DNA from: an uncultured Alphaproteobacteria bacterium
GTDB lineage: Bacteria; Pseudomonadota; Alphaproteobacteria; UBA828
Direction: 5' to 3'
Assembly (NCBI GenBank): GCA_913053235.1
Contig: CAJXFT010000007.1
Span: 1-45,386, forward strand
Length of the DNA: 45,386 bases
The notes beneath the pieces were generated by a model, which saw only the letters and a list, made by a program, of their open reading frames with translations, was not told the origin of the DNA and searched no databases. Positions 3,417-39,139 of the stretch are shown here, piece by piece. How positions within the stretch are numbered: the first letter of the stretch is position 1; each line of letters starts with the position of its first letter. Both the position numbers and the translations under genes were made by a program.

Positions 3417-4709
3417 ATGTCGAATGTCGCCGTCGTCGGCGCCCAATGGGGCGACGAAGGCAAGGGCAAGATTGTCGATTGGCTGTCCGAGCGCGCCGAT
3501 GTGGTGGTGCGCTTCCAGGGCGGCCACAATGCCGGCCACACCCTGGTCATCGACGGCAATGTGTTCAAACTGAGCCTGCTGCCGTCGGGCGTCGTGCGCG
3601 GCGGCAAGCTTTCGGTAATCGGCAACGGCGTCGTGATCGACCCCTGGGCGCTGCGGCGCGAGATCGAGGAAATCGCCACCAAGGGCGTCGAGGTTACGCC
3701 TGAAAATCTGATGATCGCCGAGAATGCCTGCCTTATCCTGCCGCTGCACCGCGAGCTCGACCAGGCGCGCGAGGCGGCGCGCGGCGGCCAGACCATCGGC
3801 ACCACCGGGCGCGGTATCGGCCCCGCCTATGAGGATAAAGTCGGCCGGCGCGCCATCCGCATGTGCGATCTCAGCTCGCTGGCGGCGCTCGATGCCCGCC
3901 TTGACGAGCTGTTGCTGCACCACAATGCGCTGCGCCGGGGATTCGGCATCGGCGATGCCGACAAGGAAGTATTGAAGGCCGAACTAAGCGAGGTGGCGCC
4001 GCATGTTCTGCCCTATGCGGGCGCCGTGTGGCGCCGCCTCGACGCTGAGCGGCGCGCCGGCAAGCGCATCCTCTTCGAAGGCGCGCAAGGCGCCATGCTC
4101 GATATCGATCACGGCACCTACCCCTATGTGACCTCTTCCAACACCGTCGCCGGGCAGGCCGCGGCGGGCGCCGGCATCGGGCCGGGCGCCATCGGCTATG
4201 TGCTCGGCATCACCAAGGCCTATACCACGCGTGTCGGCTCGGGCCCGTTCCCGACCGAATTGGACGACGCGGTGGGGCAGGGCCTCGGCGAGCGCGGCCA
4301 TGAATTCGGCACCGTCACCGGACGGCGCCGGCGCTGCGGCTGGTTCGACGCCGTGATGGTGCGCCAGGCGGTCAAGATCAGCGGCATCAAGGGCATCGCA
4401 CTGACCAAGCTCGACGTGCTCGACGGCATGGACGAGCTTAGAGTGTGCACCGCCTATCGGCTGGATGGCAGCGGCATCGATCATTTGCCGGCTCAAGCCG
4501 CCGAGCAGGCCGCCGCCGAGCCGGTCTATGAGAGCTTCGATGGCTGGCAGCAAAGCACCCAGGGCGCGCGTTCATGGGCCGAACTGCCGGCCAGCGCGGT
4601 AAAATATATCCGCCGCATCGAGGAACTGATCGAGGCGCCGGTGGCACTTCTTTCGACCAGCCCCGAGCGCGACGACACCATCCTGGTGCGCGATCCGTTC
4701 GCCGATTGA
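3417..4709 (+). CDS. purA: Adenylosuccinate synthase
   Basis: 430 aa, the normal length. GDEGKGK (residues 12-18) is the GTP-binding P-loop with catalytic Asp, GGHNAGHT carries the catalytic His41, and [36 protein letters not shown] and [11 protein letters not shown] are hallmark motifs for IMP and aspartate binding. Catalyses GTP-dependent conversion of IMP and aspartate to adenylosuccinate in AMP synthesis, in the cytosol. GAGGAA lies just upstream of the ATG and overlaps the end of hisZ, so the two are very likely co-transcribed and translationally linked. Confidence 0.97.
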
Positions 4710-4741
4710 GCCCGAGCGCTTTCGTAATTTTAGCGGGATAA

Positions 4742-5983
4742 ATGGCAATGGTTGAAGAGAGCAGCGCCGCCGCCGGCACAGAATCCGGCACCGAATCCGG
4801 TGGGCCCTTGCAGGGCTACAGGATCATCGACCTCACCACCATGATCTCGGGCCCCTTCGCCACCATGATATTGGCCGATCAGGGTGCCGACGTGATCAAG
4901 GTCGAGGCGCCCGGGCGCGGCGATCATGTGCGCCGCGGCGTCCATCGCTCGGGCGGGCTGGCGGCGAATTTTCTCAACAACAACCGCAACAAGCGCTCCA
5001 TCGCCGTCAACCTGAAGCACCCCGAGGGGCGCGATATCCTGTTGCGCCTCGCCGCGAACGCCGATGTCTTCGTGCAGAATTTTCGCCCCGGCGTGGTCGA
5101 GCGCCTCGGCGTCGGCGAGGCCGATATCCGCGCCGTGCGGCCCGATATCGTCTATGTCTCGCTCAGCGGCTTCGGCGAGAACGGCCCCTATGCCGCCAAG
5201 CCGACCTATGACCCGATCATCCAGGCGGCCTCCGGCCTGGCCTCCGTCCAGGGCGGCTCGGACGACAATCCGCCGCGTTTAGTACGCACCATCCTCCCAG
5301 ACAAAGTGACCGCCGTTACCGCCGCCCAGGCGATTACCGCCGCCCTGTTGGCACGCCAGCGCGGCGGCGCGGCGCAGCATGTGCGCCTCTCCATGCTCGA
5401 TGCGGTGGTGGCTTTTCTGTGGTCGACCGATATGGGCGGCCAGACCTTTGTCGACAGGCCGGTGAGCGCCCAGCGCGCCGCCAGTTTCATCGACCTTATC
5501 TACACCACCCTGGACGGCCATATCAGCGTCGCCGTCATGAGCAACCGCGAATGGCACGCTCTGGCCGCCGCCTTCGAGCGCCCCGGATGGCTGGAGGATG
5601 CGCGCTTCGCGACGCCGGCGCTGCGCGACAAGAATATCGATGCGCGCCTGACGATGACCCAGGAGATGTTGAAAACGCGCACCAGCGCCGACTGGCTGGC
5701 GCGCCTCGAGGCGGCCGGCGTGCCGTGCGCGCCGGTGCTGACGCGCAACCAGCTGATCGAGCATGAGCAAATCGCGGCGAGCGAAATTCTGGTCGAGAGC
5801 GAGCATCCCCAGGCCGGGCGCCTGCGTCAGGCGCGCCCCGCCGCGCGCTTCGACGTGACGCCGCCCGGCATTCGCCACGGGGCGCCGCTGCTGGGCCAGC
5901 ATTCGGACGAAATTCTCAGCGAAATCGGCATCGGCCGGGATCGCATCGCCGCGCTCCGTGCCGACGGTGTGATCGAGGGCTGA
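4742..5983 (+). CDS. CaiB/BaiF (class III) CoA-transferase family protein
   Basis: 413 aa. After a ~20-residue Ser/Glu/Gly-rich N-terminal tail comes GYRIIDLTTMISGPFATMILADQGADVIKVE, the classic class III CoA-transferase start. NLKHPEGRDIL and VFVQNFRPGVVERLG follow, and TYDPIIQAASG carries the expected catalytic Asp157 that forms the acyl-enzyme anhydride. Members move CoA between carboxylic acids (formyl/oxalyl, carnitine, succinyl donors); the acids used here cannot be predicted. Start at ATG 4742 (MAM; second ATG at 4748 possible). It lies 32 bp after purA in the same direction. The N-terminal TESG-TESG is a small in-frame repeat. Confidence 0.88.
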   Translation: MAMVEESSAAAGTESGTESGGPLQGYRIIDLTTMISGPFATMILADQGADVIKVEAPGRGDHVRRGVHRSGGLAANFLNNNRNKRSIAVNLKHPEGRDILLRLAANADVFVQNFRPGVVERLGVGEADIRAVRPDIVYVSLSGFGENGPYAAKPTYDPIIQAASGLASVQGGSDDNPPRLVRTILPDKVTAVTAAQAITAALLARQRGGAAQHVRLSMLDAVVAFLWSTDMGGQTFVDRPVSAQRAASFIDLIYTTLDGHISVAVMSNREWHALAAAFERPGWLEDARFATPALRDKNIDARLTMTQEMLKTRTSADWLARLEAAGVPCAPVLTRNQLIEHEQIAASEILVESEHPQAGRLRQARPAARFDVTPPGIRHGAPLLGQHSDEILSEIGIGRDRIAALRADGVIEG

Positions 5984-5987
5984 GCCG

Positions 5988-7124
5988 TCAGGAGATTGCG
6001 GCTTCAGTATCCTGTAGGCCGAGAAAAATAGGGTCGTCGTTACTGAGGAAAATATTGACCTTGGCGTTATAGGCCGTGTGTCTTTTGCCGTGTTTGTCGG
6101 TAATGTCGAGTTCGCGCACCGCGTAGGAGCCATCCGCGTCTTGTGCACCGGTGAGGTAGGTCGAAATTCGCGAGATGGTCAGCTCGCCCATTTCGATATC
6201 CGTCATCCGTTCCAGAATAGCGGCGGCGTGATCGAAAAAATCCAGAATCCTGGCGGCGCCGGAAGTTGCTATAGATCCAACGTCTGATTCTATCTCGCCG
6301 TCGCCGCCGAGGCTCGAGATCAAGATCTGGTTGGGTTTGGCGAAACCGATGAGGCGGGCCAAGTCGATCGTCACTTCGCCGACGATATAGTCGCTGCCGA
6401 TCGCGCTCAGGCGGTTGTTCTGATGGTAGCTATAGTGGCTGCCCATGCCGAAAACGGTACGGATCGTCGGCACCTGGCTGTGCGCAATCCGGCGCTGTTG
6501 CAATGCCTGATGCGCGAGCGCCACCATGAGAACGCAGAATATATTCACGTCCGCTTCCTTGCCTTTTATCCGGTTCCAGGCGTAATAGCCGTCACCCGTC
6601 GTCGAGCGCGCGAGGTCGACCTCGGTGCCGAATTCGGCGATTTTCTCTTCGGCGATGTTGAGAGAATATTCGAGCGTGCTCAATTGCGCCGCCTGCTCCT
6701 CCGGCGAAAACAATGAAAATCCGGCGATGTCGTGCAGGAATACCGCCCTATTGCGTGTATGCGTGATGGTGTAGCGCGTAAATACGGACTCTATTTCGGC
6801 GGGCGATAGGCTCGCTTGTCGGAAGGAAAAGCGCCGCGGCTCGGCCAACAGCAATTTGGCGATTTCTCCAAATGTCCGTTCACCCATCATCCGCTCGCCG
6901 TGAACGATGCGGTGATGCTCCTGGACCAAGCTGAATATCCTCAGCGCCGGAGCGGCAAGATAGATGATGCCGCCTTGGCAGGGTCGCCAGCCAACCAACG
7001 CATTGCTGCCGAAATTCCACTGTTCGCGGAGCGTCGCGTTGAGGCGTTCAAGCAGACGACCTCGCTCAGCAGGATCTCCCGGCGAATTCAGAACTACCTT
7101 GCTATCGAATTCTTCGGCGCGCAT
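5988..7124 (-). CDS. Class III nucleotide cyclase-like protein, probably degenerate
   Basis: 378 aa, no signal peptide or membrane segment. Residues ~125-275 match the cyclase homology domain: VFLHDIAGFSLFS with metal-binding Asp132, TTGDGYYAWN with the second metal Asp178 (46 residues on), and SDYIVGEVTIDLARLIGFAKPNQILIS, aligned to the yGD-tvNlAARLe-lakpgqIlis block. The transition-state Arg is kept (Arg257) but the paired Asn position is Ile253 in my alignment. Both metal ligands survive, so it could still be an enzyme with altered chemistry or a nucleotide sensor. The N-terminal ~120 residues are of unknown fold. It converges on the CoA-transferase gene (4 bp gap). The 12-mer at 7151-7162 lies 27 bp upstream. 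Confidence 0.6.
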   Translation of the reverse strand: MRAEEFDSKVVLNSPGDPAERGRLLERLNATLREQWNFGSNALVGWRPCQGGIIYLAAPALRIFSLVQEHHRIVHGERMMGERTFGEIAKLLLAEPRRFSFRQASLSPAEIESVFTRYTITHTRNRAVFLHDIAGFSLFSPEEQAAQLSTLEYSLNIAEEKIAEFGTEVDLARSTTGDGYYAWNRIKGKEADVNIFCVLMVALAHQALQQRRIAHSQVPTIRTVFGMGSHYSYHQNNRLSAIGSDYIVGEVTIDLARLIGFAKPNQILISSLGGDGEIESDVGSIATSGAARILDFFDHAAAILERMTDIEMGELTISRISTYLTGAQDADGSYAVRELDITDKHGKRHTAYNAKVNIFLSNDDPIFLGLQDTEAAIS

Positions 7125-12134: not shown

Positions 12135-12794
12135 TTATGGATTGAGAAAGATGATGCGCCCGATCAGGGGGCCGCCCTCGGCCTCGGCCAGGCGGTCGAT
12201 GGCGAAGGTCACACGGGCCTGATCGGCGCTGGCGCGGTAGCGCCCGCCGGGGGCGAGGCGGTGTGCCGTCGCCGCCAGATCCGCCATGCCGCCCTCAAGT
12301 GCCAACGCCAAGGGCGGCGCCTCGGCGTCGAGGCGCTCGACGGTCACTTGCGCCGCCGCGCCGGTTATATGGAAGGCCGGCGTCAGGCTGAACAGGATGA
12401 CCTGCGGCGGCGCCTCGGAATCGCCGCCGGGCGGGGCGCGGTAGACCATGGCGCCGGATTTGTCCGACAGGGCATCGGCCAATATCAGGCTGCCGCCGTC
12501 GCATTCGACCAGCTCGCGATATACCCGGCCGCGCTTTACCGTGCCGTGTTCGGTGCCCACCGTCACCTCGCCGCCGGTGATCGTCTCGCGCCAGCACGAA
12601 CGTAAGTAACCGAGCACCAGCCGCCCGCCGGCGCCGAGCGTGATCACCCGGCCGGCCTCGAGCATGTCGAAAAGCTGCACATCGCCGGTATTGCCTTCGC
12701 TCTGTTCGACGATCGCCACCAATTCGCCGGCCCGTAGCGGCGCCGGGGCGGCGGCGAAAAGTGCCAGCAGGCACAGAACAAGAAATGCTTTCAT
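12135..12794 (-). CDS. Secreted FecR-like domain protein paired with the caspase gene
   Basis: 219 aa. Signal peptide KAFLVLCLLALFAAAPAPLRA with likely cleavage before GELVAIVEQ. Residues ~25-110 have the FecR-like pattern of a beta-rich domain (GRVITLGAGGRLVLGYLRSC then ITGGEVTVGTEHGTVKRGRV); two cysteines, in RSCWRETI and VECDGG, could form a disulphide in the periplasm. No membrane anchor or sigma-regulator motif. Start taken as ATG 12794, 7 bp after the caspase stop, giving a clean signal peptide; ATG 12815 would overlap the caspase gene by 14 bp. The tight spacing implies translation from one mRNA and a joint role with the caspase. True function unknown. Confidence 0.65.
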   Translation of the reverse strand: MKAFLVLCLLALFAAAPAPLRAGELVAIVEQSEGNTGDVQLFDMLEAGRVITLGAGGRLVLGYLRSCWRETITGGEVTVGTEHGTVKRGRVYRELVECDGGSLILADALSDKSGAMVYRAPPGGDSEAPPQVILFSLTPAFHITGAAAQVTVERLDAEAPPLALALEGGMADLAATAHRLAPGGRYRASADQARVTFAIDRLAEAEGGPLIGRIIFLNP

Positions 12795-12801
12795 GGCGAT
12801 A

Positions 12802-15777
12802 TCATTGAGCCCCATCGGCGCCGACCAGCGCCAGCGGAAAATCGGCCTCGACCGGCTTGCCGACGGCCGGCGTCTGGCGGCCGGCGGTCAGTTTCCTGAC
12901 GCGCCGCGAAATATAGGCGTCGAGGGTGGAAACCGTCACCTCGCCGTCGCCGAACAGATCGGCGCGCCCGGCCAGGCCTTCCAGCATCGCCTCGGTAAAG
13001 GCACCGTTCCGCCATGCCGCATTTTCCACCGAGAGCTGGGCGTGGGTCGAGGAGGCGAACACGATAACGCCGTTCTCCGGGCTCGACAGATCATTGACCA
13101 CGCGCACCACATCGTTGGACGGCTCGCCCGGCCTTCCCCACACGCCGCCGGCGCGGCAGGTATCGACGAACAGCAGGCTGCGCGCCGAGAGCGAGGTCAG
13201 CGCCTCTTTGATCTCGCCGTAGGCCAGGGCGGTTTCCGCGAGGCGCGCCGGGTCGCCGTCATGGGGCAGGAAGAAATAGGCGCCCGAGGCATCGTCGACG
13301 CCGTGCCCGGCCAAAAAAAGCGCCGCGAAATCGCCGGCCCGGGCTTCGCGCCTGAGCCATGCCAGGCCGTCACGCAGCGCCGCGCCGCTGGCCTCATCGT
13401 CGGAGAGAATGCGGAGATGCACGGTGCCGTAGGCGCGGCCGTCCTGTGCCAGCAGAATGGCGGCGAAATCCCGCGCATCCTTATGGGCGAAATTGAGGCG
13501 GAGCTCCTCGGCGGCGTAGTGGCTGACGCCGGCGGCGAGCAGATAGAGATCGGGGCGGCTCTCCGCCGCGCCGCCGACCCAGCGCAAGGATAGGCGCGCC
13601 GCTTCGCTTACCGTGCCGCGGCTGCCCTCGGCGGTGACCGAGATTTCGCTGTCATGGCGCGGCACCGTCAGTGCGAGCTCGAACGGCGCGCCGCCGGCGA
13701 GGTCGGCGAGATCGCCTTCCAGCGCGGCGATGGGCCGCCCGTCGGCGCGCACCTGTATGGCGCTGAGCGTATCGCCCGGTGCCGCGCGCACGGAAAGCTC
13801 GACGGTGACGCGCGGCGCCGAAATCTCGGCGCCACCGCTGAGCGTCAGCGCGGCGACGACCGGCGGCAACAACCGCCCGATGCCGCCGGGCACCTCCCGG
13901 GCTTCCGCGGCCAACGCCTGCATGACGATATCGGGGCGGTAAAAAGCCTCGCGGAAACGCCTCACGGCGAAGAAATCGGCGGCCCTGTCGGCGCCGCGAT
14001 TGACGTGCCAGCCGACCAGCGAATCGCCGCCCGGCGAGGCCAGATAATGGCCGGCCGGCGTCCAGGCGACCCAGCGCGCGCCGTCCTTATGGGCAAACAG
14101 AGCGAGCAGTTCGGCGCCGTCGGCCATGCGGTACCAGCGGATCGAGCCATCGCCGAACGCGGCGGCGGCGAGACGGCCATCGGTCGTGATGTTGAGCGCC
14201 CAGGTTTCGCCCGGCGCCTGGAAGCTCCACATCTCGTTGGCGTTGGCGCCGTAGCGGATGACGCGCCAGCGGGTACCGAGCAATATGCCGCTTTGGTCCG
14301 GCGCCACGGCGTAGCTTTCCGCCCGCTCATAAGGAAAGAGGGGAAGTGCCGCACCATTCAAGGTCGGCGCATAGCTGCCCTGCCAATTTGCCACCGCCAT
14401 GGCTGGTGTTTTCAGAAGCGGCGGCGCGAAATCCGCGCCGGGCGCCGGCGGATCGAGTTTGAGAGCGCGTGTCTCGAGCGCGAACAGCGCCGTCGCGCCG
14501 CCACCTGAAGCAAACTTGAAATATACTTGCGCGCCGTTCGCGGAGAGCCTGAAATCACTGCCCATATCGCGAAAATCGGCGGCCCGCGAGCGCCACTCGA
14601 ACAATTTGATATGATTTTCGTCGATGGCGCCGAGGGCCGGCTCGGAGCCGGCGAAATAGACCCCGCCCGCCGCGCGCGGCGCCAGATATGTGACGCCCTT
14701 GGCGGACGCCGCCGCGACATCTTGCGGGCGCCCCCGTCCGCCGTCGTCCCAGCGCCGCACCGGGTGCGTGCCGGCGCGTTCGAATTCACCGCCGGCGTAG
14801 AGAAAGCGGCCGTCCGCCGACCAGGCGGTGCGCCACATGTCGCCGTTATCGACACCCTCCATGCTCGGGCAGAATTGCAGCGACAGATCCTCCGCCGACA
14901 GCACATCGACGCGCTGACGCTCGGCATAGCCGACCGCCAGATATTTGCCGTCGGGCGAGAAGCTGGCCGACGTCGGCCATTCGCCGCCCGGCGCGCGGCG
15001 CGCTCGGAGCAGGTTGAATTCGGCGTCGAACAGGCGGATCGAACCGTCGAGCGATACCGTCACCAGCCGGCCTTGGTTGTCGAATTCGAGCCAGCCGGAA
15101 CTCGGCGCCGCGACGCCCTCGGGATTGTCGGCGTCGAGATAGGGCAGGGCAGTGGCGCGGCAGTTCGGGTCGTCGAAATCGTTTTCGTCGCCCGCCGCCA
15201 GGCCGCCCGGATGAACCACCGGACGCGCGGCGGCGAGGGCGAAGTCGCGCAGCCGGTAGACGCGAAAGCCGTGGCCGTTCTTGAGGGTGACGGCGAGGTG
15301 GCTGCCATCGGGCGAGAAAGCCAGATGCAAACCGCGGTGCGGCAGGTCATTGATGCGGTGGATCATCTCGCCGCTGGCGATATCGAACAGATAAAGGCTC
15401 CAATTGGGATCGCCCGATTCGCCGGTCCAACCCGCCGTGGCGACCATGCCGCCGTCGGGCGAGATGGCGACGCCGTAAAGCGCGCCTTCGCGCTCATCGC
15501 CGATCGGTACGCGCAAGGTGCGGATCAATCCGCCATCCTTAAGCGACCACAGCCGCAAGGTCTTGTCATAGGATGCCGAGGCCAGGATGCCGGCGCCGGG
15601 ATGGATTGCGATGCGGCCGATCTTGGCCGTGTGCATGCCGGTCTCAACGCGCAGCACCGGCGCTTCGGAAAGCCCGCCCGGCGCATCGGCCGCGGTGCCG
15701 GGCGCGGCGCCCAACAGAGCGAGGCCAAAAGCCAGGAGCGTCAATAGGCCGGCCGCGCGCCAGCTTGTGATCTTCAT
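12802..15777 (-). CDS. Exported WD40-repeat caspase-like protease (orthocaspase/metacaspase type)
   Basis: 991 aa. A signal peptide (~30 residues, LLTLLAFGLALLGAAPGTAA) sends it to the periplasm. Residues ~45-560 hold a run of WD40/beta-propeller repeats (for example GILASASYDKTLRLWSLKDG, SASFSPDGKYLAVGYA, RLAAAAFGDGSIRWYRMADG). A linker beta-domain follows (~640-730). The C-terminal ~240 residues are a peptidase C14 domain with the dyad His825 in LFLAGHGVDDASG and Cys874 in LLFVDTCRAGG, both intact. Family members cut after basic or acidic residues; specificity here is unknown. Export is unusual for a caspase, since most act in the cytosol. It precedes the FecR-like gene by 7 bp and faces away from the Asp-Pro mini-protein gene. 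Confidence 0.9.
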   Translation of the reverse strand: MKITSWRAAGLLTLLAFGLALLGAAPGTAADAPGGLSEAPVLRVETGMHTAKIGRIAIHPGAGILASASYDKTLRLWSLKDGGLIRTLRVPIGDEREGALYGVAISPDGGMVATAGWTGESGDPNWSLYLFDIASGEMIHRINDLPHRGLHLAFSPDGSHLAVTLKNGHGFRVYRLRDFALAAARPVVHPGGLAAGDENDFDDPNCRATALPYLDADNPEGVAAPSSGWLEFDNQGRLVTVSLDGSIRLFDAEFNLLRARRAPGGEWPTSASFSPDGKYLAVGYAERQRVDVLSAEDLSLQFCPSMEGVDNGDMWRTAWSADGRFLYAGGEFERAGTHPVRRWDDGGRGRPQDVAAASAKGVTYLAPRAAGGVYFAGSEPALGAIDENHIKLFEWRSRAADFRDMGSDFRLSANGAQVYFKFASGGGATALFALETRALKLDPPAPGADFAPPLLKTPAMAVANWQGSYAPTLNGAALPLFPYERAESYAVAPDQSGILLGTRWRVIRYGANANEMWSFQAPGETWALNITTDGRLAAAAFGDGSIRWYRMADGAELLALFAHKDGARWVAWTPAGHYLASPGGDSLVGWHVNRGADRAADFFAVRRFREAFYRPDIVMQALAAEAREVPGGIGRLLPPVVAALTLSGGAEISAPRVTVELSVRAAPGDTLSAIQVRADGRPIAALEGDLADLAGGAPFELALTVPRHDSEISVTAEGSRGTVSEAARLSLRWVGGAAESRPDLYLLAAGVSHYAAEELRLNFAHKDARDFAAILLAQDGRAYGTVHLRILSDDEASGAALRDGLAWLRREARAGDFAALFLAGHGVDDASGAYFFLPHDGDPARLAETALAYGEIKEALTSLSARSLLFVDTCRAGGVWGRPGEPSNDVVRVVNDLSSPENGVIVFASSTHAQLSVENAAWRNGAFTEAMLEGLAGRADLFGDGEVTVSTLDAYISRRVRKLTAGRQTPAVGKPVEADFPLALVGADGAQ

Positions 15778-15843
15778 TACACTATTGTTGGTCAGCCGAT
15801 ACTATAGTCAAATCATATTCGAAGTGACCGTAACCGAGGAGTG

Positions 15844-15999
15844 ATGGAGATGCTGCATTGGCGTTTATTGATGGCGGCGCTCGTTTTGACCTTCGCCTTG
15901 GGCCTGACGCTGCCGTTCGCCGGCCTGACCGGCGGCACGGCATGGGCCGGCGATCCCGACGATCCCTACGTTCCACCCGACGATCCCGACGATCCCTGA
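15844..15999 (+). CDS. Secreted mini-protein with Asp-Pro tail
   Basis: 51 aa. It starts MEMLHWRLLM, has a long hydrophobic segment and an AWA signal-peptidase site, leaving GDPDDPYVPPDDPDDP as the predicted mature 16-residue peptide, acidic and Pro-rich with internal symmetry. GAGGAG directly precedes the start region; ATG 15844, ATG 15850 or GTG 15841 are all possible. The tail is built from a 17-bp direct repeat (CGATCCCGACGATCCCT at 15951 and 15981). It is divergent from the caspase gene with 66 bp between starts, so they may share control. No family recognised. It could bind calcium or be a caspase substrate or inhibitor, but that is inference only. Confidence 0.6.
   Translation: MEMLHWRLLMAALVLTFALGLTLPFAGLTGGTAWAGDPDDPYVPPDDPDDP
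15951..15997 (+). repeat. 17-bp direct repeat inside the mini-protein gene
   Basis: CGATCCCGACGATCCCT is repeated exactly at 15951-15967 and 15981-15997, an in-frame 30-bp period that creates the two DPDDP blocks of the encoded tail. Confidence 0.9.
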
Positions 16000-23241: not shown

Positions 23242-26200
23242 ATGAGCATGCGCCAAATGTCGGACAGTCAGGAACCGGAGGAAAACCTCTCCGCGCTCAG
23301 CAATTCCCAGCTTGTCGCGGCGGTGGCGCGGCTTCAGCACCGCGTCGTTACTCTGGAAAATGAGCTTGAGGAGCACCGCCACGGCGTAACCGAGGCAGGC
23401 AAACCGATCTCGGGCGACGATCGGCTTCGCCTTCAGCGCCTTGAGTTGGCCGTGCAGGCGACCAAGGACGGTGTTTGGGATTGGGATATTGTCAACAAGC
23501 GCATATGGCAGTCGGCGCCACTGCGCCACCTCTATGGATATGCCGAGAGCGAACTTGAAGAGGCGTTCGACATCGACGATGAATCCGACCCCTGGTGCGC
23601 GGGTCTGCATCCCGAAGACCGGCCGCTTTTGGCTCGCACCCTGCGCGCCCATCTACTCGACGACACGCCTTACGAATTGGAATTTCGCTACCGCATGCCG
23701 GCGGGCGACTATCGCTGGATCGGCACGATCGGCCAGGCGATCCGCGACGGCGAAGGCACCCCCATCCGCATGGTCGGCTCGAACAGGGACATTACCGACC
23801 GCGTCAACGCCACGGATGCCTTGCGCGCCAGCGAAGCCCGCCTCGAAAAGGCGCAGCGCACCGCACAGGTAGGCAATTGGGAATATTTCCCGGCCACCGA
23901 TAGCCTCGTTTGGTCGGCTGAAACCCACCGCATTTTCGGCACCACTCCCGACGACTATCGTCCGACAAGGGAGGGATTTTACAACTTTGTCCATCCCGAC
24001 GACCGCGAGCGCATACGCGGCATCCACGACGATATTGTGCGCACCGGAAAGCAAATCGGCTATGAACACCGTATTGTGCTGGACGATGGCGAGATCCGTT
24101 GGGTGCATCAAATAAATGAGCCCATCGGCGATGACAAAGTCGAAACCGAAAGCCGACGCGGCACCGTCCAGCTCATCACCGAACGAAAACTGGCCGAACA
24201 GGCGCTCAAGCATAGCGAAGCACAGCAGCGCCTGCTGATGGACAGCATGCCGGCATTGATCGCCTATATCGATGCCGACAAGCGCTACAGGACCGTCAAT
24301 CGTACTTTCGAGGAATGGTACCGGCTGCCGCTCGCGTCAGTATTGGGAAAGACGGTCGAAGCAGTCGTCGGAGCGGAGTATTACGCCACGATCAAGGATT
24401 TTACCGAGCGCGCGCTTGCCGGCGAACAGGTTAGCTATGATCGAACCATTACCTACCCCGGCGGGCGAAGCCGGGATATCCATGCCGCCTTGGTTCCTGA
24501 CATAGGCCCTGAACAACGTGTCCGTGGATACTATGCTCTGATCACCGACGACACCGAGCGCAAAGAGAACGAAGAACAGTTGCGCCAAAGCGAGGCGCGC
24601 CTTGTCGAAGCGCAGCAACTCGGAAATGTCGGTAGTTGGGCACTGTATTTTCTCGGCGATGACCAAGTCGAGACTCGCTGGTCGGAGCAATTGTGCAGAA
24701 TTTACGGAATCGAGCCGGATGCGGCGCCACAAGAACTTTCTGCGTTCATCGAACTTGTCCATCCGGACGATCGAGACGGCCTAACTCTTGCCTGGAGAAA
24801 TGCGTTTGAGCGGAACGAACTCTTTCAGGCGGAACACCGCATAATATGTCCCGGCGGAAAAATCCGGCACGTTCACACCAAGGCGCGTTTTTTCGCCTTC
24901 GATGCCGGCGGCGGCAAACGCTGTGTCGGAGCTACCAGCGATATCACGGAGCGCAAGGAGATCGAGGAAGCGTTGCGCGATCGCGAGCAAATGCTGAGCG
25001 GTATATTCGAATCCGCTTCAGTCGGCATCGTGGTGAACGATACCGAAGGCCGTTTCATAAAGTCGAACCGCACCTATCAGGCGATGTTGGGCTTGAGCGG
25101 CGAAGAGCTGAAACGCATGACATTCTGGGACGTCACTCACCCGGATGACCATGCGCGGGAGGTGGTACCGCGCAATAAATTCTTGGCCGGCGGCGGCGAG
25201 TCTTATCAGCTCGACAAAAGATATATTCATAACAATGGTTCGACCTTGTGGGTGCGCGTGAATTCGGCGCGCTTGAAAAATGCCGAGGGCAAGGTTATCG
25301 GCGATATAGCCGTGGTCGAGGATATTACGCGGCGCCGGGAAATCGAGGCGCAACTTCTGCAATCCCAGAAAATGGAGGTGGTCGGCCAGCTTACCGGCGG
25401 CGTCGCGCATGATTTCAACAACCTCCTCACCGTGATATCGGGCAACCTCCATCTGCTGCGCGAAGGCGCCGACGGCGGCAAGGCCGGCCCCGATTTAATC
25501 GCCCGCGCGCTCCAGGCGGTTGAGCGCGGCGCCGATTTGACCCGGCGCCTGTTGGCGTTTTCCAGGACCCAAACGCTGCAACCCGACGCCGTGGATGCCG
25601 GCGCGCTGGTGTCGGACATGATCGAAATATTGCACCGTACCCTGGGCGCGAATATCGAGATCGTGACCTCTCGGCCGGATGATTTATGGCCTTGCGAGGC
25701 CGATTCTTCGCTGCTGGAAAGCGCCATTTTGAATTTGGCGATCAATGCGCGCGACGCCATGGCGGATGGCGGCACGCTTGCCATCTCGGTCGAAAATTCG
25801 CAATTGGATGATGCCGATGCCGCCGCCGAGACGGATGCCAAGGCGGGAGAATATGTGATGCTGTCGGTATGCGATACCGGAGCCGGCATCGCCAGGGAAA
25901 ATCTGGACCGCGTTTTCGAGCCGTTTTTTTCCACCAAGGAAGTCGGCAAGGGGTCCGGCCTCGGCCTCAGCATGGTTTATGGTTTTGCCCGGCAATCGCG
26001 CGGCCATGTGAATATCGAGAGCGAGGAGGGCGAGGGCACCAAGGTCAGGCTTTTCCTGCCGCGCGCGATGCGCACGGATGAGCAAGCCGCGCCGGCGCCG
26101 CCGGTGGACGGCATACCGGCGGCCAGGGGCGAAACAATTCTGATCGTCGAGGACGATCCGGACGTGCGCACGCTTGCCGCCGCCCTGTTGTCGAAACTCG

Positions 26201-26493
26201 GCTATCAAATCATTGAGGCGCCGGATGCAAAGGCGGCGCTGGCGCTGTTGCGGCGCAGCGGTTCGGTCGATTTGCTGCTTAGCGATATCGCCTTGCCCGG
26301 CGAATTGAACGGCACCGACCTCGCGATCGAAGTGCGCGCCGCAGCGCCGGGTATCAAAATCGTATTAATGTCGGGCCTGGCGCAAAGCGATGTCGACGGC
26401 GAAAAGGCCGCCGAGCACGGATTTCACTTTATTCAAAAGCCGTTCGGCAAGCCCGTTCTCGCCAATACCATCCGCAAGGCACTCGACGGATAG
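23242..26493 (+). CDS. Soluble five-PAS hybrid histidine kinase
   Basis: 1083 aa, no membrane helix. A short coiled coil (~20-48) leads to five PAS/PAC modules at about 65-185, 200-315, 325-440, 455-570 and 580-700, each closing with a DIT-E/R-like PAC end. The HisKA domain has His723 in GGVAHDFNNLLTVI. HATPase motifs are NLAINARDAM (Asn835), CDTGAGI and GKGSGLGLSMVYGFARQS. A C-terminal receiver (~965-1083) starts TILIVEDDPDVR with phospho-acceptor Asp1015 in LLLSDIALPG. Domain plan and wording of the kinase core match the six-PAS kinase at 35540-39139, so the two are paralogues. Shine-Dalgarno sequence is weak; CtrA and GANTC sites lie upstream. It converges on the lactonase gene (4-bp gap). 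Confidence 0.93.
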   Translation: MSMRQMSDSQEPEENLSALSNSQLVAAVARLQHRVVTLENELEEHRHGVTEAGKPISGDDRLRLQRLELAVQATKDGVWDWDIVNKRIWQSAPLRHLYGYAESELEEAFDIDDESDPWCAGLHPEDRPLLARTLRAHLLDDTPYELEFRYRMPAGDYRWIGTIGQAIRDGEGTPIRMVGSNRDITDRVNATDALRASEARLEKAQRTAQVGNWEYFPATDSLVWSAETHRIFGTTPDDYRPTREGFYNFVHPDDRERIRGIHDDIVRTGKQIGYEHRIVLDDGEIRWVHQINEPIGDDKVETESRRGTVQLITERKLAEQALKHSEAQQRLLMDSMPALIAYIDADKRYRTVNRTFEEWYRLPLASVLGKTVEAVVGAEYYATIKDFTERALAGEQVSYDRTITYPGGRSRDIHAALVPDIGPEQRVRGYYALITDDTERKENEEQLRQSEARLVEAQQLGNVGSWALYFLGDDQVETRWSEQLCRIYGIEPDAAPQELSAFIELVHPDDRDGLTLAWRNAFERNELFQAEHRIICPGGKIRHVHTKARFFAFDAGGGKRCVGATSDITERKEIEEALRDREQMLSGIFESASVGIVVNDTEGRFIKSNRTYQAMLGLSGEELKRMTFWDVTHPDDHAREVVPRNKFLAGGGESYQLDKRYIHNNGSTLWVRVNSARLKNAEGKVIGDIAVVEDITRRREIEAQLLQSQKMEVVGQLTGGVAHDFNNLLTVISGNLHLLREGADGGKAGPDLIARALQAVERGADLTRRLLAFSRTQTLQPDAVDAGALVSDMIEILHRTLGANIEIVTSRPDDLWPCEADSSLLESAILNLAINARDAMADGGTLAISVENSQLDDADAAAETDAKAGEYVMLSVCDTGAGIARENLDRVFEPFFSTKEVGKGSGLGLSMVYGFARQSRGHVNIESEEGEGTKVRLFLPRAMRTDEQAAPAPPVDGIPAARGETILIVEDDPDVRTLAAALLSKLGYQIIEAPDAKAALALLRRSGSVDLLLSDIALPGELNGTDLAIEVRAAAPGIKIVLMSGLAQSDVDGEKAAEHGFHFIQKPFGKPVLANTIRKALDG

Positions 26494-29376: not shown

Positions 29377-30636
29377 CTAGCCGCCCTTGTTATGAACCAG
29401 ATATGCCGTGCCCGCCCCGCCTTCGGTTTCGACCGTCGCCGAGATGGTTTGCATCAGCGCCGCCGCGCCGGACTGCACCACCCAATAGGAATGATCGCCG
29501 TCGAGCAAGAGATTATAGAGCAGGGTCGCGGAATCGGCCGCCACCGCGGCCAGCGAAGCCAGCCTTTGATGGCCGACGGCGCCTTCCGCCAGGCCGCGCG
29601 GGTCTCCCAGCGCGGCAAGACGCCACGCCGAACGCCGCATCGTCAGCAGCCCGTCTCCCGGCTCCAGCCTGGCGACGTCGAGGGCGCCGTTCTCCGCCGC
29701 CGTCGCCGACGGGTCGATCGACTTCCAGCCGCTCTCGGTCATGAACGGATGTTCCGCCGTCACGAAGGGCGGGCCGCCGTCAAAGCCGTACAGCATGCGC
29801 CCGCCGAGCTTCACCCGCTCGATGCCGGTCACCAGGTTATGGGTGCCGTCCCGCCCGAGCACCACTTCTCCGATCGCGATGTCACTTATCGCCTTCAGCC
29901 GGCCGTCGGCCATGACGATACGGGTCTCGGGCGTGAAACAACTGCTGCCGCCGCCACTGCCGCCGCCGCCGCCGTTACCGCCGCCGCTGGCGGCGCCCGA
30001 CGATGCCGAGCCCTGGCCCGCAGAAACGCTTGCCGGCGGCGCGCTCTGGCTCGACGGCGAAACGCTGACGGTTCCGTTGGCCGTCGCCACGGAAGCGGTT
30101 TCTCCGGGGTTGACCGCCGCCGCCGCGCCGCCGCCACGCGGCGACACCGACACCTGCCCCGAATAAACCGAAACTTCGGTGGCGCCGCTCGCCGCCACGG
30201 CGACCGAGAAATCCGTCCCGCGTATGCCGATGATGACGGCGGGCGTGAGTATCTCATAGCTCGGGCCCGGCAGATTTCCGGTGACAAAGCGAAACAGCCC
30301 GACGGTGAGTTCGGCCACCATCTCGCCGCTGCCCCGGTCGGGATCATAGATAAAGGAATCCAGCGTCAACTGGCTCGAGGCGCCGAGCCATAAATCGGTA
30401 TCGTCCAAAAATCGGATCTGGGCGCTGGATTTCTTGACCGTCTCGATCAATTCATCGGCATAGACATGGTCATTTTTATAGAGGCGCTCGGAATCGCCGC
30501 CGGCGACGGTGCCGTATAGCGCCAGGCGAATCTCCTCGACATTGCCGATTTCCACCGTCTCGGCTCGTGCCTGGGTGATTGCAAGCGTGGTTAAGCTGAA
30601 AACGAGCGCGGCCGCCAAGCAGCGAAAAATATACAT
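29377..30636 (-). CDS. Secreted FecR-domain protein with C-terminal Hint (intein-like) domain
   Basis: 419 aa. Signal peptide (YIFRCLAAALVFSLTTLAI, cleavage near ARA-ET). FecR domain ~25-185, including LWLGASSQLTLDSFIYDP and TPAVIIGIRGTDFSVAV. A Gly/Ser/Ala linker (~186-232) leads to a Hint domain: Cys233 in SCFTPETRIVMADG, block B Thr293-x-x-His296 in VTAEHPFM, YNLLLDGDHSYWV, and the C-terminal block YLVHNKGG ending with His415-Asn416. All autoprocessing residues of Hint domains are in place, with Lys rather than Cys/Ser/Thr after the Asn, so cleavage is more likely than splicing. Start at ATG 30636; ATG 30711 would add residues ahead of the signal peptide. A CtrA box lies 99 bp upstream. 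Confidence 0.85.
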   Translation of the reverse strand: MYIFRCLAAALVFSLTTLAITQARAETVEIGNVEEIRLALYGTVAGGDSERLYKNDHVYADELIETVKKSSAQIRFLDDTDLWLGASSQLTLDSFIYDPDRGSGEMVAELTVGLFRFVTGNLPGPSYEILTPAVIIGIRGTDFSVAVAASGATEVSVYSGQVSVSPRGGGAAAAVNPGETASVATANGTVSVSPSSQSAPPASVSAGQGSASSGAASGGGNGGGGGSGGGSSCFTPETRIVMADGRLKAISDIAIGEVVLGRDGTHNLVTGIERVKLGGRMLYGFDGGPPFVTAEHPFMTESGWKSIDPSATAAENGALDVARLEPGDGLLTMRRSAWRLAALGDPRGLAEGAVGHQRLASLAAVAADSATLLYNLLLDGDHSYWVVQSGAAALMQTISATVETEGGAGTAYLVHNKGG

Positions 30637-35539: not shown

Positions 35540-38500
35540 TCAGGCCAACGCTTCGCCGCCGTCCAGCGCCTGTCGAACCGCGGCCGCGAAATCCGCCTTC
35601 TTAAACGGTTTTTGCAGCAGCCGCGGGCCGCCATTTCGCCCCGCCAGGGTGGAGATTGCGCCTTCCGTGTAACCTGACATATAGAGCAATTTGACGGCCG
35701 GCCTGCGGCGTTGAATTTCGCTCGCAAGGTCGCGGCCGTTCATGCCGCCCGGCAAAACGATGTCGCTGAGCAACAGATCGATCGCCGGCGCGCGCTCGAC
35801 AACTTCCAGCGCCGCCTTCGCCGTCGCGGCTTCGAGGACTTCGTAGCCGAGATTGCCGAGAAGGGCGATCGCGAGAGCGCGGACATCGGCATCGTCCTCG
35901 ACCACCAAAACCCTCTCGCCACGGGCCGATGGCGATACCGCATCCAAAGGATGTTTCTTCCCGCCGTCGCACCGCGCCGATGATCGCGGCAGGAATATCT
36001 TGACCGTGCTGCCCTTGCCTTCCTCGCTGTCAATCACTGCATGGCCGCCCGATTGCCGGGCGAAGCCATACACCATGCTTAAGCCCAGGCCCGAGCCCTG
36101 GCCGACATCCTTGGTCGAAAAAAACGGCTCGAAGGCGTGAAGCAACACGTCGCTCGGCATTCCCGTGCCGGTGTCCGAGACCGCGAGCATCACATACTCC
36201 CGGGGTGTCGTCTCGCTCGGCACGGCGGCGCGCGCGTCGCTCTCGGACAGGTTTGCCGTCTCGATGGTGAGAGCGCCGCCCCCGGGCATGGCGTCGCGGG
36301 CGTTGATCGCCAGGTTGAGGATCGCGCTTTCCATCTGTGAAACATCGACGTCACAAAGCCACAATTCATCCTTGGCTAGGGTGTTCACCTCTATCGTCTC
36401 GCCGAGTGTGCGCACCAACATATCCGCCATTTCGGACACCAATATGTCGAGATTGATCGCTTCGGGTTGCAGCACTTGCTTGCGCGAAAAGGCGAGCAGC
36501 CGATTGGTCAAGGCGGCGCCTCGACCGGCCGCCTGCACCGCGCGCTCGATCATCCGGGTGGCATCAGCGTCACCGTTGAGGTGCTCGCGAACCAGCTCGA
36601 GGTTCCCCAGCATCACCGTCAGCAGATTGTTGAAGTCGTGCGCGACACCGCCGGTCAACTGGCCGACGGCCTCCATTTTCTGCGCTTGACGAAGCTGTTC
36701 CTCGACCAGCTTGCGTTCGCTGGCGTCGCGCATGGTGCCGATAAAGGTGCGCTGCCCGCCGACCAGCATTTCGCTGACCGCAAGCTCCATCGGAAACGTC
36801 GCGCCATCCTTGCGCTGGCCCAATACTTCGCGTGGTCCCTGCCCGATAAGTTTTCCGCTTCCGGTTTCCAGATATCGTTTAACGAAGCCCGGGTGAAGGC
36901 TACGCTCCGGCTCGGGCATCAGCAGCTCTACGTTTCGCCCGATAACCTGTTCGGCCGGATAGCCGAACATTTTCTCGGCGGATCGGTTAAATGATTGAAT
37001 AGTTGCCCGCTCGTCGATCGTGATCACGCCGTCGGCCACATTCTCCATGATGCCGCGCAGGTTTTGCTCGCTCTTCCGAAGCGCCTCTTCCGCCTCTATT
37101 TGCTCGGTGATGTCCCGAACCGTGCCGGCAAAGCGAATGGGCTTGTATGCTTCGTTTCGAAACACCCGCACGTGAGAACTCATCACCCGTTCGACGCTGT
37201 CCGCTCTGACGGTTCGAAAAATTATGTCGTAATCTTGGCCATCCTTGGCGAGCTTCTCATTCGCGGACTTGACGCGGTCCAGATCGTTCGGGTGGACGTG
37301 TCTCAGAAAATCGTCGTAGGACGGCTCGAAGGCGCTTGGTTCATGGCCATATATGCGAAAATGTTGGTCTGACCATTGCTCTTTTCCACTCTCGATATGA
37401 CGCTCCCAGCTGCCGATTTTTGCGATGCGTTGGGCCTCTGCAAGACCGGCCTCGCTCTTGCGCAGGGCCTCCTCCGCCGCGCGGCGATCGGTGACATCCT
37501 GGCCCAAACCAAATAGCCCCCGCACGTGGCCATCGGCGGCGACGTCCGGGACGTAGGTGATCTCCATCGTGCGCCGGCCGAGTTTCGGGTAGTCGCGCTC
37601 AATATCGAACTTCACCGCCTCACCGGTGAGCGCTCGGCGAAAGTAGGGTTCCCAGAGATTGAATGATTTTTCGTCGATCAGTTCATATACGTTCATGCCG
37701 ATGAATTCATTGCGAGGTCGGCCGTACCAATCCTCGTATGCTTTGTTTGCGAAGCGGTAACACCCGTTTTCATCCAAATAGGAAATGATGGCCGGCAAAT
37801 TATCCGTGACCGTACGCAGCAATTGTTGGCTTTCCTCGAGCGCGGTTTCCGCCGCCTTGCGTTCGCTGATATCGCGAATGATGCCCATGAATCGCGCCGG
37901 AGGGCCGTCGCCGTCACCCACCGGCCAGGCATGTATGGAGACCGGCACTTGCCTTCCATCACGATGGAGATATTCCTTTTCGTATTCGCCGTATGGTCCG
38001 GCCAGTATTTTCTCTCTTATTGTTCGGTTCTGTTCCCGCCACTCAGGATGTGAAATGTCATCAAGGCTGCGGCCACGCAATTCGGCAATATCGTAGCCGA
38101 GCATTTGAAGGAAGGCCGGGTTCGCCTCTTGAATCTTGCCTTCGGGGTCGGTGAACAGAATGCCGTCGAGACTGGTTTCGAACAGGCTTCGGTACTTGTT
38201 TTCCGATTCCGCCAGGGCCGCCGCCGCGCGCCTATGTTCGGTGACATCCAAGGCGAGGGCCGCCACGCCTGTGGTCTTTCCAGCCGCGTTCCTGAGCGGG
38301 GTATTGTACCACTCGACGAATACCGTGCGGCCGTCCTTGGTTACATTTTCACTGGTGTTGCGTACACCCCCTTCGTGTTCGAGCACGCGCTGGATGAAGT
38401 CATCTATGTACTTTCTATCTTTTTCTGGGACGACAAGTATCATTGCGTTGTGGCCTATCGCCTCGTCCGCGCTGTAGCCGAAAATTTTTTCCGCCGCCGA

Positions 38501-39139
38501 ATTCCATTCTTTCACCACGTAGTTCACGTCCCAAACGATCACGGCGACAGGCGTATGGGTAATATGGTTTGACAGCCTTAATTCACTCTCCCGCAGCGCT
38601 TCCAGCGCCTGCTTTTGCTCGGTGATGTCTTGCGAAACGCAGAGAATAGCGGGCTTGCCGCTATCCGCCGTGCGGTAAGGAACCTTGATCGTCTGTTGCC
38701 ATCTCTCGCGACCCCGCCCATCGATAAATGGCTCCTCGGCGATGTGTTTGATTCTTCCTGACCTGATGACCTCAAGGTCATCGGAGCGATAGCGCGCCAC
38801 CAAGGCCGGATCGGCGCTCAATTCGTCTTCTTTCCGGCCCGTCATCTCCCGCACCGTTAGCCCGAAGGCCGAAGCGGTGGCTTGGTTGACCAGAATAAAT
38901 CGACCGTCAATGTCTTTCGCGAACAGGAAGTGGGGCACCAGATCGATGATCTGGCGAATCGTCTGTTCATGAATATCTTGAGCCGCGGGGAGGGTGGAGC
39001 GTGAAGCGGGGTTCGCTAGAGGCGCGCCAGGGCCTCGTTCAAGCTCCTCGATCCGGCGTTTGAGATCGGCGACCTGCCGGCTGAGCCGAGCGTTTTCCCG
39101 GCGCATCGAGGCGCTGCCGGTTCGCTCTGAACGCGTCAT
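35540..39139 (-). CDS. Soluble six-PAS hybrid histidine kinase with FixL-like last PAS
   Basis: 1199 aa. N-terminal coiled coil (~14-36), then PAS modules at about 60-180, 190-305, 312-430, 440-555, 565-685 and 695-810. The sixth, with ITIDERATIQSFNRSAEKMF and LMPEPERSLHPGFVKRYLET, reads like the heme PAS of FixL; His749 aligns with the heme-ligating His200 of Bradyrhizobium FixL and Arg755 with Arg206. HisKA His834 (GGVAHDFNNLL), HATPase (NLAINARDAM, SDTGTGM, GQGSGLGLSMVYG) and a C-terminal receiver with Asp1126 (LLLSDIVLPG) follow. No membrane segment. GGGAG precedes the ATG, and a CtrA box lies 47 bp upstream. Paralogue of the five-PAS kinase at 23242. Confidence 0.93.
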   Translation of the reverse strand: MTRSERTGSASMRRENARLSRQVADLKRRIEELERGPGAPLANPASRSTLPAAQDIHEQTIRQIIDLVPHFLFAKDIDGRFILVNQATASAFGLTVREMTGRKEDELSADPALVARYRSDDLEVIRSGRIKHIAEEPFIDGRGRERWQQTIKVPYRTADSGKPAILCVSQDITEQKQALEALRESELRLSNHITHTPVAVIVWDVNYVVKEWNSAAEKIFGYSADEAIGHNAMILVVPEKDRKYIDDFIQRVLEHEGGVRNTSENVTKDGRTVFVEWYNTPLRNAAGKTTGVAALALDVTEHRRAAAALAESENKYRSLFETSLDGILFTDPEGKIQEANPAFLQMLGYDIAELRGRSLDDISHPEWREQNRTIREKILAGPYGEYEKEYLHRDGRQVPVSIHAWPVGDGDGPPARFMGIIRDISERKAAETALEESQQLLRTVTDNLPAIISYLDENGCYRFANKAYEDWYGRPRNEFIGMNVYELIDEKSFNLWEPYFRRALTGEAVKFDIERDYPKLGRRTMEITYVPDVAADGHVRGLFGLGQDVTDRRAAEEALRKSEAGLAEAQRIAKIGSWERHIESGKEQWSDQHFRIYGHEPSAFEPSYDDFLRHVHPNDLDRVKSANEKLAKDGQDYDIIFRTVRADSVERVMSSHVRVFRNEAYKPIRFAGTVRDITEQIEAEEALRKSEQNLRGIMENVADGVITIDERATIQSFNRSAEKMFGYPAEQVIGRNVELLMPEPERSLHPGFVKRYLETGSGKLIGQGPREVLGQRKDGATFPMELAVSEMLVGGQRTFIGTMRDASERKLVEEQLRQAQKMEAVGQLTGGVAHDFNNLLTVMLGNLELVREHLNGDADATRMIERAVQAAGRGAALTNRLLAFSRKQVLQPEAINLDILVSEMADMLVRTLGETIEVNTLAKDELWLCDVDVSQMESAILNLAINARDAMPGGGALTIETANLSESDARAAVPSETTPREYVMLAVSDTGTGMPSDVLLHAFEPFFSTKDVGQGSGLGLSMVYGFARQSGGHAVIDSEEGKGSTVKIFLPRSSARCDGGKKHPLDAVSPSARGERVLVVEDDADVRALAIALLGNLGYEVLEAATAKAALEVVERAPAIDLLLSDIVLPGGMNGRDLASEIQRRRPAVKLLYMSGYTEGAISTLAGRNGGPRLLQKPFKKADFAAAVRQALDGGEALA

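Follow-up and report, generated by a model that had tools for sequence, protein, structure and literature searches.

Among bacterial metacaspases, WD40 is the commonest additional domain (10.9%), and an N-terminal helix, possibly a signal peptide, is present in 46 sequences, according to the sections of the survey by Asplund-Samuelsson et al. 2012 on which we draw (PMC3501461). The same sections describe metacaspase-NACHT-WD40 as the widespread type and report a metacaspase fused to CHASE2 in Trichodesmium (PMC3501461). In the parts of the source used here, the Burkholderia BiofilmReg operon combines a FecR/LysM protein with a CHASE2 histidine kinase (PMC5192318). For Sinorhizobium, whose CyaD1/CyaD2/CyaK-Clr cAMP pathway involves CHASE2-adenylyl cyclases, excerpts report that a CyaD1 construct without CHASE2 makes cAMP constitutively, which indicates that the periplasmic CHASE2 domain restrains the cyclase (PMC5498481).

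Here, we analyze a stretch of 45,386 nucleotides (the window) from a marine alphaproteobacterium, in which the gene for a predicted exported WD40-caspase protein is followed by that for a smaller predicted exported protein, P2, whose family is defined in the present work. The window caspase shares WD40 and a His-Cys dyad with the bacterial WD40-metacaspases/orthocaspases, but differs from the widespread NACHT type in that WD40 precedes the caspase domain, the protein is predicted to be exported and it is paired with P2, a pairing that the sections of the survey used here do not mention (PMC3501461). Like the Trichodesmium fusion, the module proposed below would couple a caspase to a CHASE2 sensor; however, the fusion is described there as one protein with a cytoplasmic caspase, whereas here the cyclase has a gene of its own and the caspase is predicted to be exported (PMC3501461). 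The BiofilmReg operon resembles P2 loci in placing the gene of an exported protein beside that of a CHASE2 sensor, but it has a true FecR-LysM protein and a histidine kinase output, and the parts of the source used report no peptidase (PMC5192318). The Sinorhizobium pathway likewise relies on CHASE2-adenylyl cyclases in the Alphaproteobacteria, although the excerpts report neither P2 nor a peptidase (PMC5498481). In the open-licence full-text literature we found no paper joining CHASE2 with a CHAT domain, none joining CHASE2 and caspase with adenylate cyclase, and none joining CHASE2, CHAT and FecR; papers combining CHASE2 with FecR, or CHASE2 with caspase, describe other arrangements in the parts consulted. 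Because the search covered open-licence papers only, an earlier description may have escaped it. The locus consists of known component types in a combination that we did not find described, plus one unnamed family, P2.

The caspase, P2 and the divergent mini-protein

An initial annotation had proposed a 991-residue protein with WD40 and an intact His825/Cys874 dyad, and the open reading frame, Pfam WD40 matches and an alignment of 17 caspases (the window protein and 16 from other loci) all agree with it; G824-H825-G826, D872 and C874 are invariant in the alignment. Judged from its sequence by the His-Cys dyad criterion, the window protein is a putative caspase-like peptidase (clan CD, C14). 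The domain matches NCBIfam NF047832 (caspase_w_EACC1) with E 6e-21 and 74.8 bits, under the curated cutoff of 140, and is divergent, given that Pfam PF00656 gives no match at E<=0.1; a homologue in genome G391, 48% identical to the window caspase, matches PF00656 above cutoff (E 2.7e-13). The alignment left out a chimera at L075:2-265, in which the C-terminal half of a caspase is fused in frame to what we take, reading from the sequence, to be a pyruvate-kinase-like segment; this junction is probably an assembly error.

The structural model of the caspase domain has alternating alpha and beta elements in the expected strand/helix order, with pLDDT mostly 80-95 over the core. The WD40 propeller model matches WDR5 (E 7.6e-14, Foldseek against the PDB) and its second half is of low confidence; of the full protein model, only the caspase domain and the first half of WD40 are usable. 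The PDB matches listed for the full model all fall on the WD40 part and none is listed for the caspase domain, and a PDB sequence search with that domain returned nothing useful.

Export was judged by sequence heuristics and genes were called with a home-made codon-usage caller. The caspase begins with a basic n-region, then a hydrophobic stretch, then an Ala-rich cleavage region, in keeping with the signal-type N-terminus annotated initially. The accompanying premise that most bacterial caspases are cytosolic does not fit our Alphaproteobacteria sample, in which, where the N-terminus is complete, most caspases show a signal-like start by the same heuristic; exported caspases are, on this prediction, usual rather than rare in the class.

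P2 begins 7 bp after the caspase stop, and, as annotated, has an export-type N-terminus and two cysteines; both, C67 and C98, are invariant in 53 homologues. The window P2 shows all the features by which we define the family, namely a profile match, Cys67 and Cys98, the motif LGYxxSC and an export-type N-terminus, and it has no match in Pfam or NCBIfam. Its model is mostly beta and confident (pLDDT 86.7), with no match to the PDB at E<0.001, and searching PDB sequences with its family profile gave nothing useful. The label 'FecR-like' given to P2 could not be upheld: there is no PF04773 match, no meaningful profile match to a genuine FecR protein of the same window and no confident PDB fold match. 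That genuine FecR protein (29377-30636, minus strand) is predicted to be exported and has an unusual domain combination, the beginning of a Hint domain (E 2e-9) coming after the FecR domain (E 3e-14). Also in the window, <10 kb apart, are the genes of two multi-PAS hybrid histidine kinases (23242-26493, plus strand; 35540-39139, minus strand), both very large and equipped with receiver domains.

The mini-protein on the opposite strand is real and divergent as proposed, but rather than 51 residues starting 66 bp away it is better described as 49 residues from an ATG 72 bp from the caspase start, because this ATG is conserved in congeners and has GAGGAG 8 bp upstream. Its tail is short and acidic. 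Two congeners carry it at 76-78% identity and it is broken in two others; searches beyond the genus gave chance-level matches only, and it is at most a local accessory.

In simple pairwise comparisons between congeners (synonymous distances ~0.3-0.8), dN/dS is 0.086 for the caspase domain, 0.20 for WD40 and 1.2 over 34 codons of the fast-evolving signal-peptide region. For P2 it is 0.25-0.38, a moderate constraint, and for the mini-protein 0.27-0.42 on just 43-49 codons. These values point to strong constraint on the caspase domain where the gene is open.

Table 1 Features of the caspase-P2 locus and its flanks (window coordinates).
Feature	Position	Strand	Basis
WD40-caspase protein, predicted exported, 991 aa	12802..15777	-	ORF, Pfam, NCBIfam, alignment
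Predicted Sec signal peptide, ~residues 1-30, MKITSWRAAGLLTLLAFGLALLGAAPGTAA	15688..15777	-	Sequence and heuristic
WD40 / beta-propeller region, ~residues 46-600	13978..15642	-	Pfam and Foldseek
Caspase domain, ~residues 740-985	12823..13560	-	NCBIfam, alignment, model
Caspase His825	13303-13305	-	Dyad residue, alignment
Caspase Cys874	13156-13158	-	Dyad residue, alignment
P2, predicted exported, 219 aa, family without Pfam entry	12135..12794	-	ORF, family profile
P2 Cys67	12594-12596	-	Invariant in family
P2 Cys98	12501-12503	-	Invariant in family
MauG-like di-haem cytochrome, predicted exported, downstream of P2	10595..12055	-	Pfam, NCBIfam, synteny
Mini-protein, predicted exported, 49 aa, mature tail GDPDDPYVPPDDPDDP, genus-restricted	15850..15999	+	Congener alignment
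Divergent intergenic region, caspase / mini-protein	15778..15849	.	Alignment of three congeners
Ribosome-binding site GAGGAG	15836-15841	.	Alignment of three congeners

Neighbours of P2 across genomes

Scanning 84,980 species genomes with a single motif, which leaves divergent P2 undercounted, yielded 61 P2 loci; a P2 match is present in 45 of 385 Alphaproteobacteria genomes. The next gene downstream is a same-strand CHASE2-adenylyl cyclase in 48 of the 56 loci that have a downstream gene (median gap 18.5 bp), and 27 of 59 loci have a gene for a caspase or CHAT peptidase <=3 genes away. Compared with genes >=5 away on the same contigs, both are enriched near P2 (p 8e-17 for the cyclase, p 6e-8 for the peptidase), and Pfam confirmed the CHASE2, cyclase, CHAT and caspase domains in representative loci. 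Four-part arrays of CHAT, caspase, P2 and CHASE2-cyclase occur at L079, L081 and L097 (the last with one extra small ORF), and unrelated caspases stand beside P2 in these three and in L086. Conserved co-occurrence of the three genes is borne out in part: the order caspase then P2 recurs in congeners, in these four loci and, degraded, in another Alphaproteobacteria family (G028), so it is not unique to the window genome, but the mini-protein is confined to the genus. Mapped on the P2 tree, the caspase-neighbour state has undergone at least 11 changes, which argues that the pairing is recurrent rather than inherited once, and the cyclase-neighbour state 7. P2 adjoins only 1 of 28 sampled Alphaproteobacteria caspases; since caspases taken at random so rarely adjoin it, P2 appears from these gene neighbourhoods to be chiefly a cyclase partner that has repeatedly acquired peptidases.

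Two further observations concern related loci. A P2-CHASE2-cyclase locus (L118) lies in a genome labelled Rubrivivax, a betaproteobacterium, through either transfer or a mislabelled bin. A second unnamed exported family of ~230 aa accompanies caspases near CHASE2-adenylyl cyclases (L199:5661-11572, L206:1310-8659, L208:5406-9930 and L209:992-6251), and the caspases bear WD40 in all of these loci except L208 (3/4). Its comparison with P2 by hhalign gives E 3.8e-4 and probability 36, the match being partly signal peptide, and a distant relationship to P2 is unproven.

In the window, P2 has no adjacent CHASE2-adenylyl cyclase gene and is followed by the MauG-like gene. The same genome encodes a paralogous P2 beside a CHASE2-cyclase on another contig, and two more CHASE2 proteins elsewhere. 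Given the usual neighbours of P2, the window locus is best read, as far as gene order can tell, as a cut-down envelope peptidase-P2-cyclase module. The caspase and P2 may accordingly be named as candidate extracytoplasmic parts of an envelope-sensing module whose CHASE2-adenylyl cyclase is encoded elsewhere in the genome, a reading that we hold tentatively and at somewhat less than an even chance. Against it count the lack of a cyclase gene beside the window P2 and the state of the cyclase beside the paralogue (L066, G000:C37, ~4285-6418, minus strand), whose reading frame seems to shift near codon 52, through an assembly error or in reality. The low share of caspases that adjoin P2 also weighs against it, as does the over-representation among P2 loci of Bradyrhizobium, where caspases are common and loci are not independent. 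Of the stress, signalling or processing system suggested at the outset, signalling fits the cyclase that usually neighbours P2, but a three-gene unit does not.

Some bacterial caspases work in cell-death or anti-phage systems. Such an effector role is very improbable here: besides this general precedent it has a weak PADLOC caspase match (E 3.8e-8), but the caspase N-terminus is of the export type, P2 has no PADLOC match, and PycC matches of a linked cyclase cover the cyclase catalytic domain only. A defence role of the locus is not supported: PADLOC and neighbour annotation revealed no defence partner genes nearby.

Fate of the locus in the genus and in a second lineage

Five of the six genus genomes (the window genome and five sampled congeners) have an intact P2. 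An intact caspase gene is present in the window genome; that of G004, recovered as two contig pieces, is open in both. In G002 it has a single stop, possibly a sequencing error, which we do not count as proof of loss. In G001 it is a multi-lesion pseudogene from which the promoter and signal-peptide region are gone and which carries a stop and a 1-bp deletion, and in G003 only scraps of it are left between P2 and the mini-protein. The caspase is thus wrecked or deleted in two of the five congeners while P2 survives. G005, with a genome 86% complete, is without caspase, P2 and the MauG-like gene. A second lineage has caspase and P2 in L086 and a scrambled caspase beside an intact P2 in L091 and L280, where the C-terminal part of the caspase is placed ahead of the middle part (L091:9218-9905; L280:5350-6037).

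The stable three-gene system implied by the initial annotation is not what these sequences indicate, given that the caspase is lost while P2 stays. Because P2 remains intact and constrained in such genomes, its function appears to be independent of an adjacent caspase; this persistence is a further point against the envelope-sensing module. The lesions in G001 and G003 and the stop in G002 could also mean that the locus is decaying and no longer has a role in the window genome, but we consider this improbable, as the frame is open in the window copy and in both G004 pieces, and constraint on the caspase domain is strong.

Alternatively, P2 and the caspase could form a periplasmic protease-inhibitor or protease-chaperone pair that works independently of cAMP. 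The 7-bp spacing and the export-type N-termini of both proteins would suit such a pair, as would the caspase-P2 pairs without a cyclase in L086 and the window genus. It is nonetheless unlikely, because a dedicated partner should decay with its caspase, whereas P2 is kept under constraint in two lineages where the caspase is gone; moreover, most P2 copies lie beside cyclases, and a nearby peptidase is absent from about half of them.

The MauG-like gene is next after P2, in synteny, in five genus members, including those without a caspase. Together with the two invariant cysteines of P2, this would be expected if P2 had been recruited in this genus to a redox pair with the di-haem protein, the caspase being a bystander on its way out. 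We regard this as quite unlikely: no sampled P2 locus outside the genus has a MauG-like neighbour, the cysteines are equally invariant in cyclase-linked P2, P2 and the MauG-like gene are separated by gaps of 55-79 bp, and constraint on the caspase domain is strong where the gene is intact. By the same gene-order evidence, the cytochrome does not appear to be part of a wider P2 module.

A possible route from envelope peptidases to cAMP

Returning to the envelope-sensing module, its sequence-level support comprises gene order, export-type N-termini, the intact dyad, purifying selection and the strong association of P2 with CHASE2-cyclases and caspase or CHAT genes. Also in its favour are the recurrence of the caspase-P2 pairing on the P2 tree, the second exported family near CHASE2-cyclases, the Trichodesmium fusion, the constitutive CyaD1 construct of Sinorhizobium, and the CHASE2 proteins of the window genome, one of them beside the P2 paralogue. 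The WD40 part would serve to dock the exported protease, either on P2 or on an envelope target, and P2 would regulate the CHASE2 sensor domain from the periplasm. If P2 or a P2-bound partner were cleaved or released, CHASE2 occupancy and hence cAMP output could change, with the cyclase of the window genome acting in trans from the inner membrane. Three of these steps we infer: binding of CHASE2 by P2, action of the caspase by way of P2, and cAMP as the output in this genome. P2 seems to have a function that outlasts the caspase and to which the caspase is an optional input.

The exported caspase beside P2 suggests that proteases of the envelope and cAMP signalling are connected in a way not yet described. 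More broadly, and on the doubtful side of possible, there may be an undescribed alphaproteobacterial pathway with periplasmic P2 at its centre, controlled by exported clan-CD peptidases (caspase and/or CHAT) and itself gating CHASE2-adenylyl cyclases, the window pair being a stripped-down branch that acts in trans. If this is true, envelope proteolysis would be converted into cytoplasmic cAMP. P2 is a candidate physiological partner of CHASE2, and the proteases upstream of it could be exported caspases or CHAT proteins. Small and widespread, P2 offers a testable handle on the roles of bacterial caspases and on the ligands of CHASE2.
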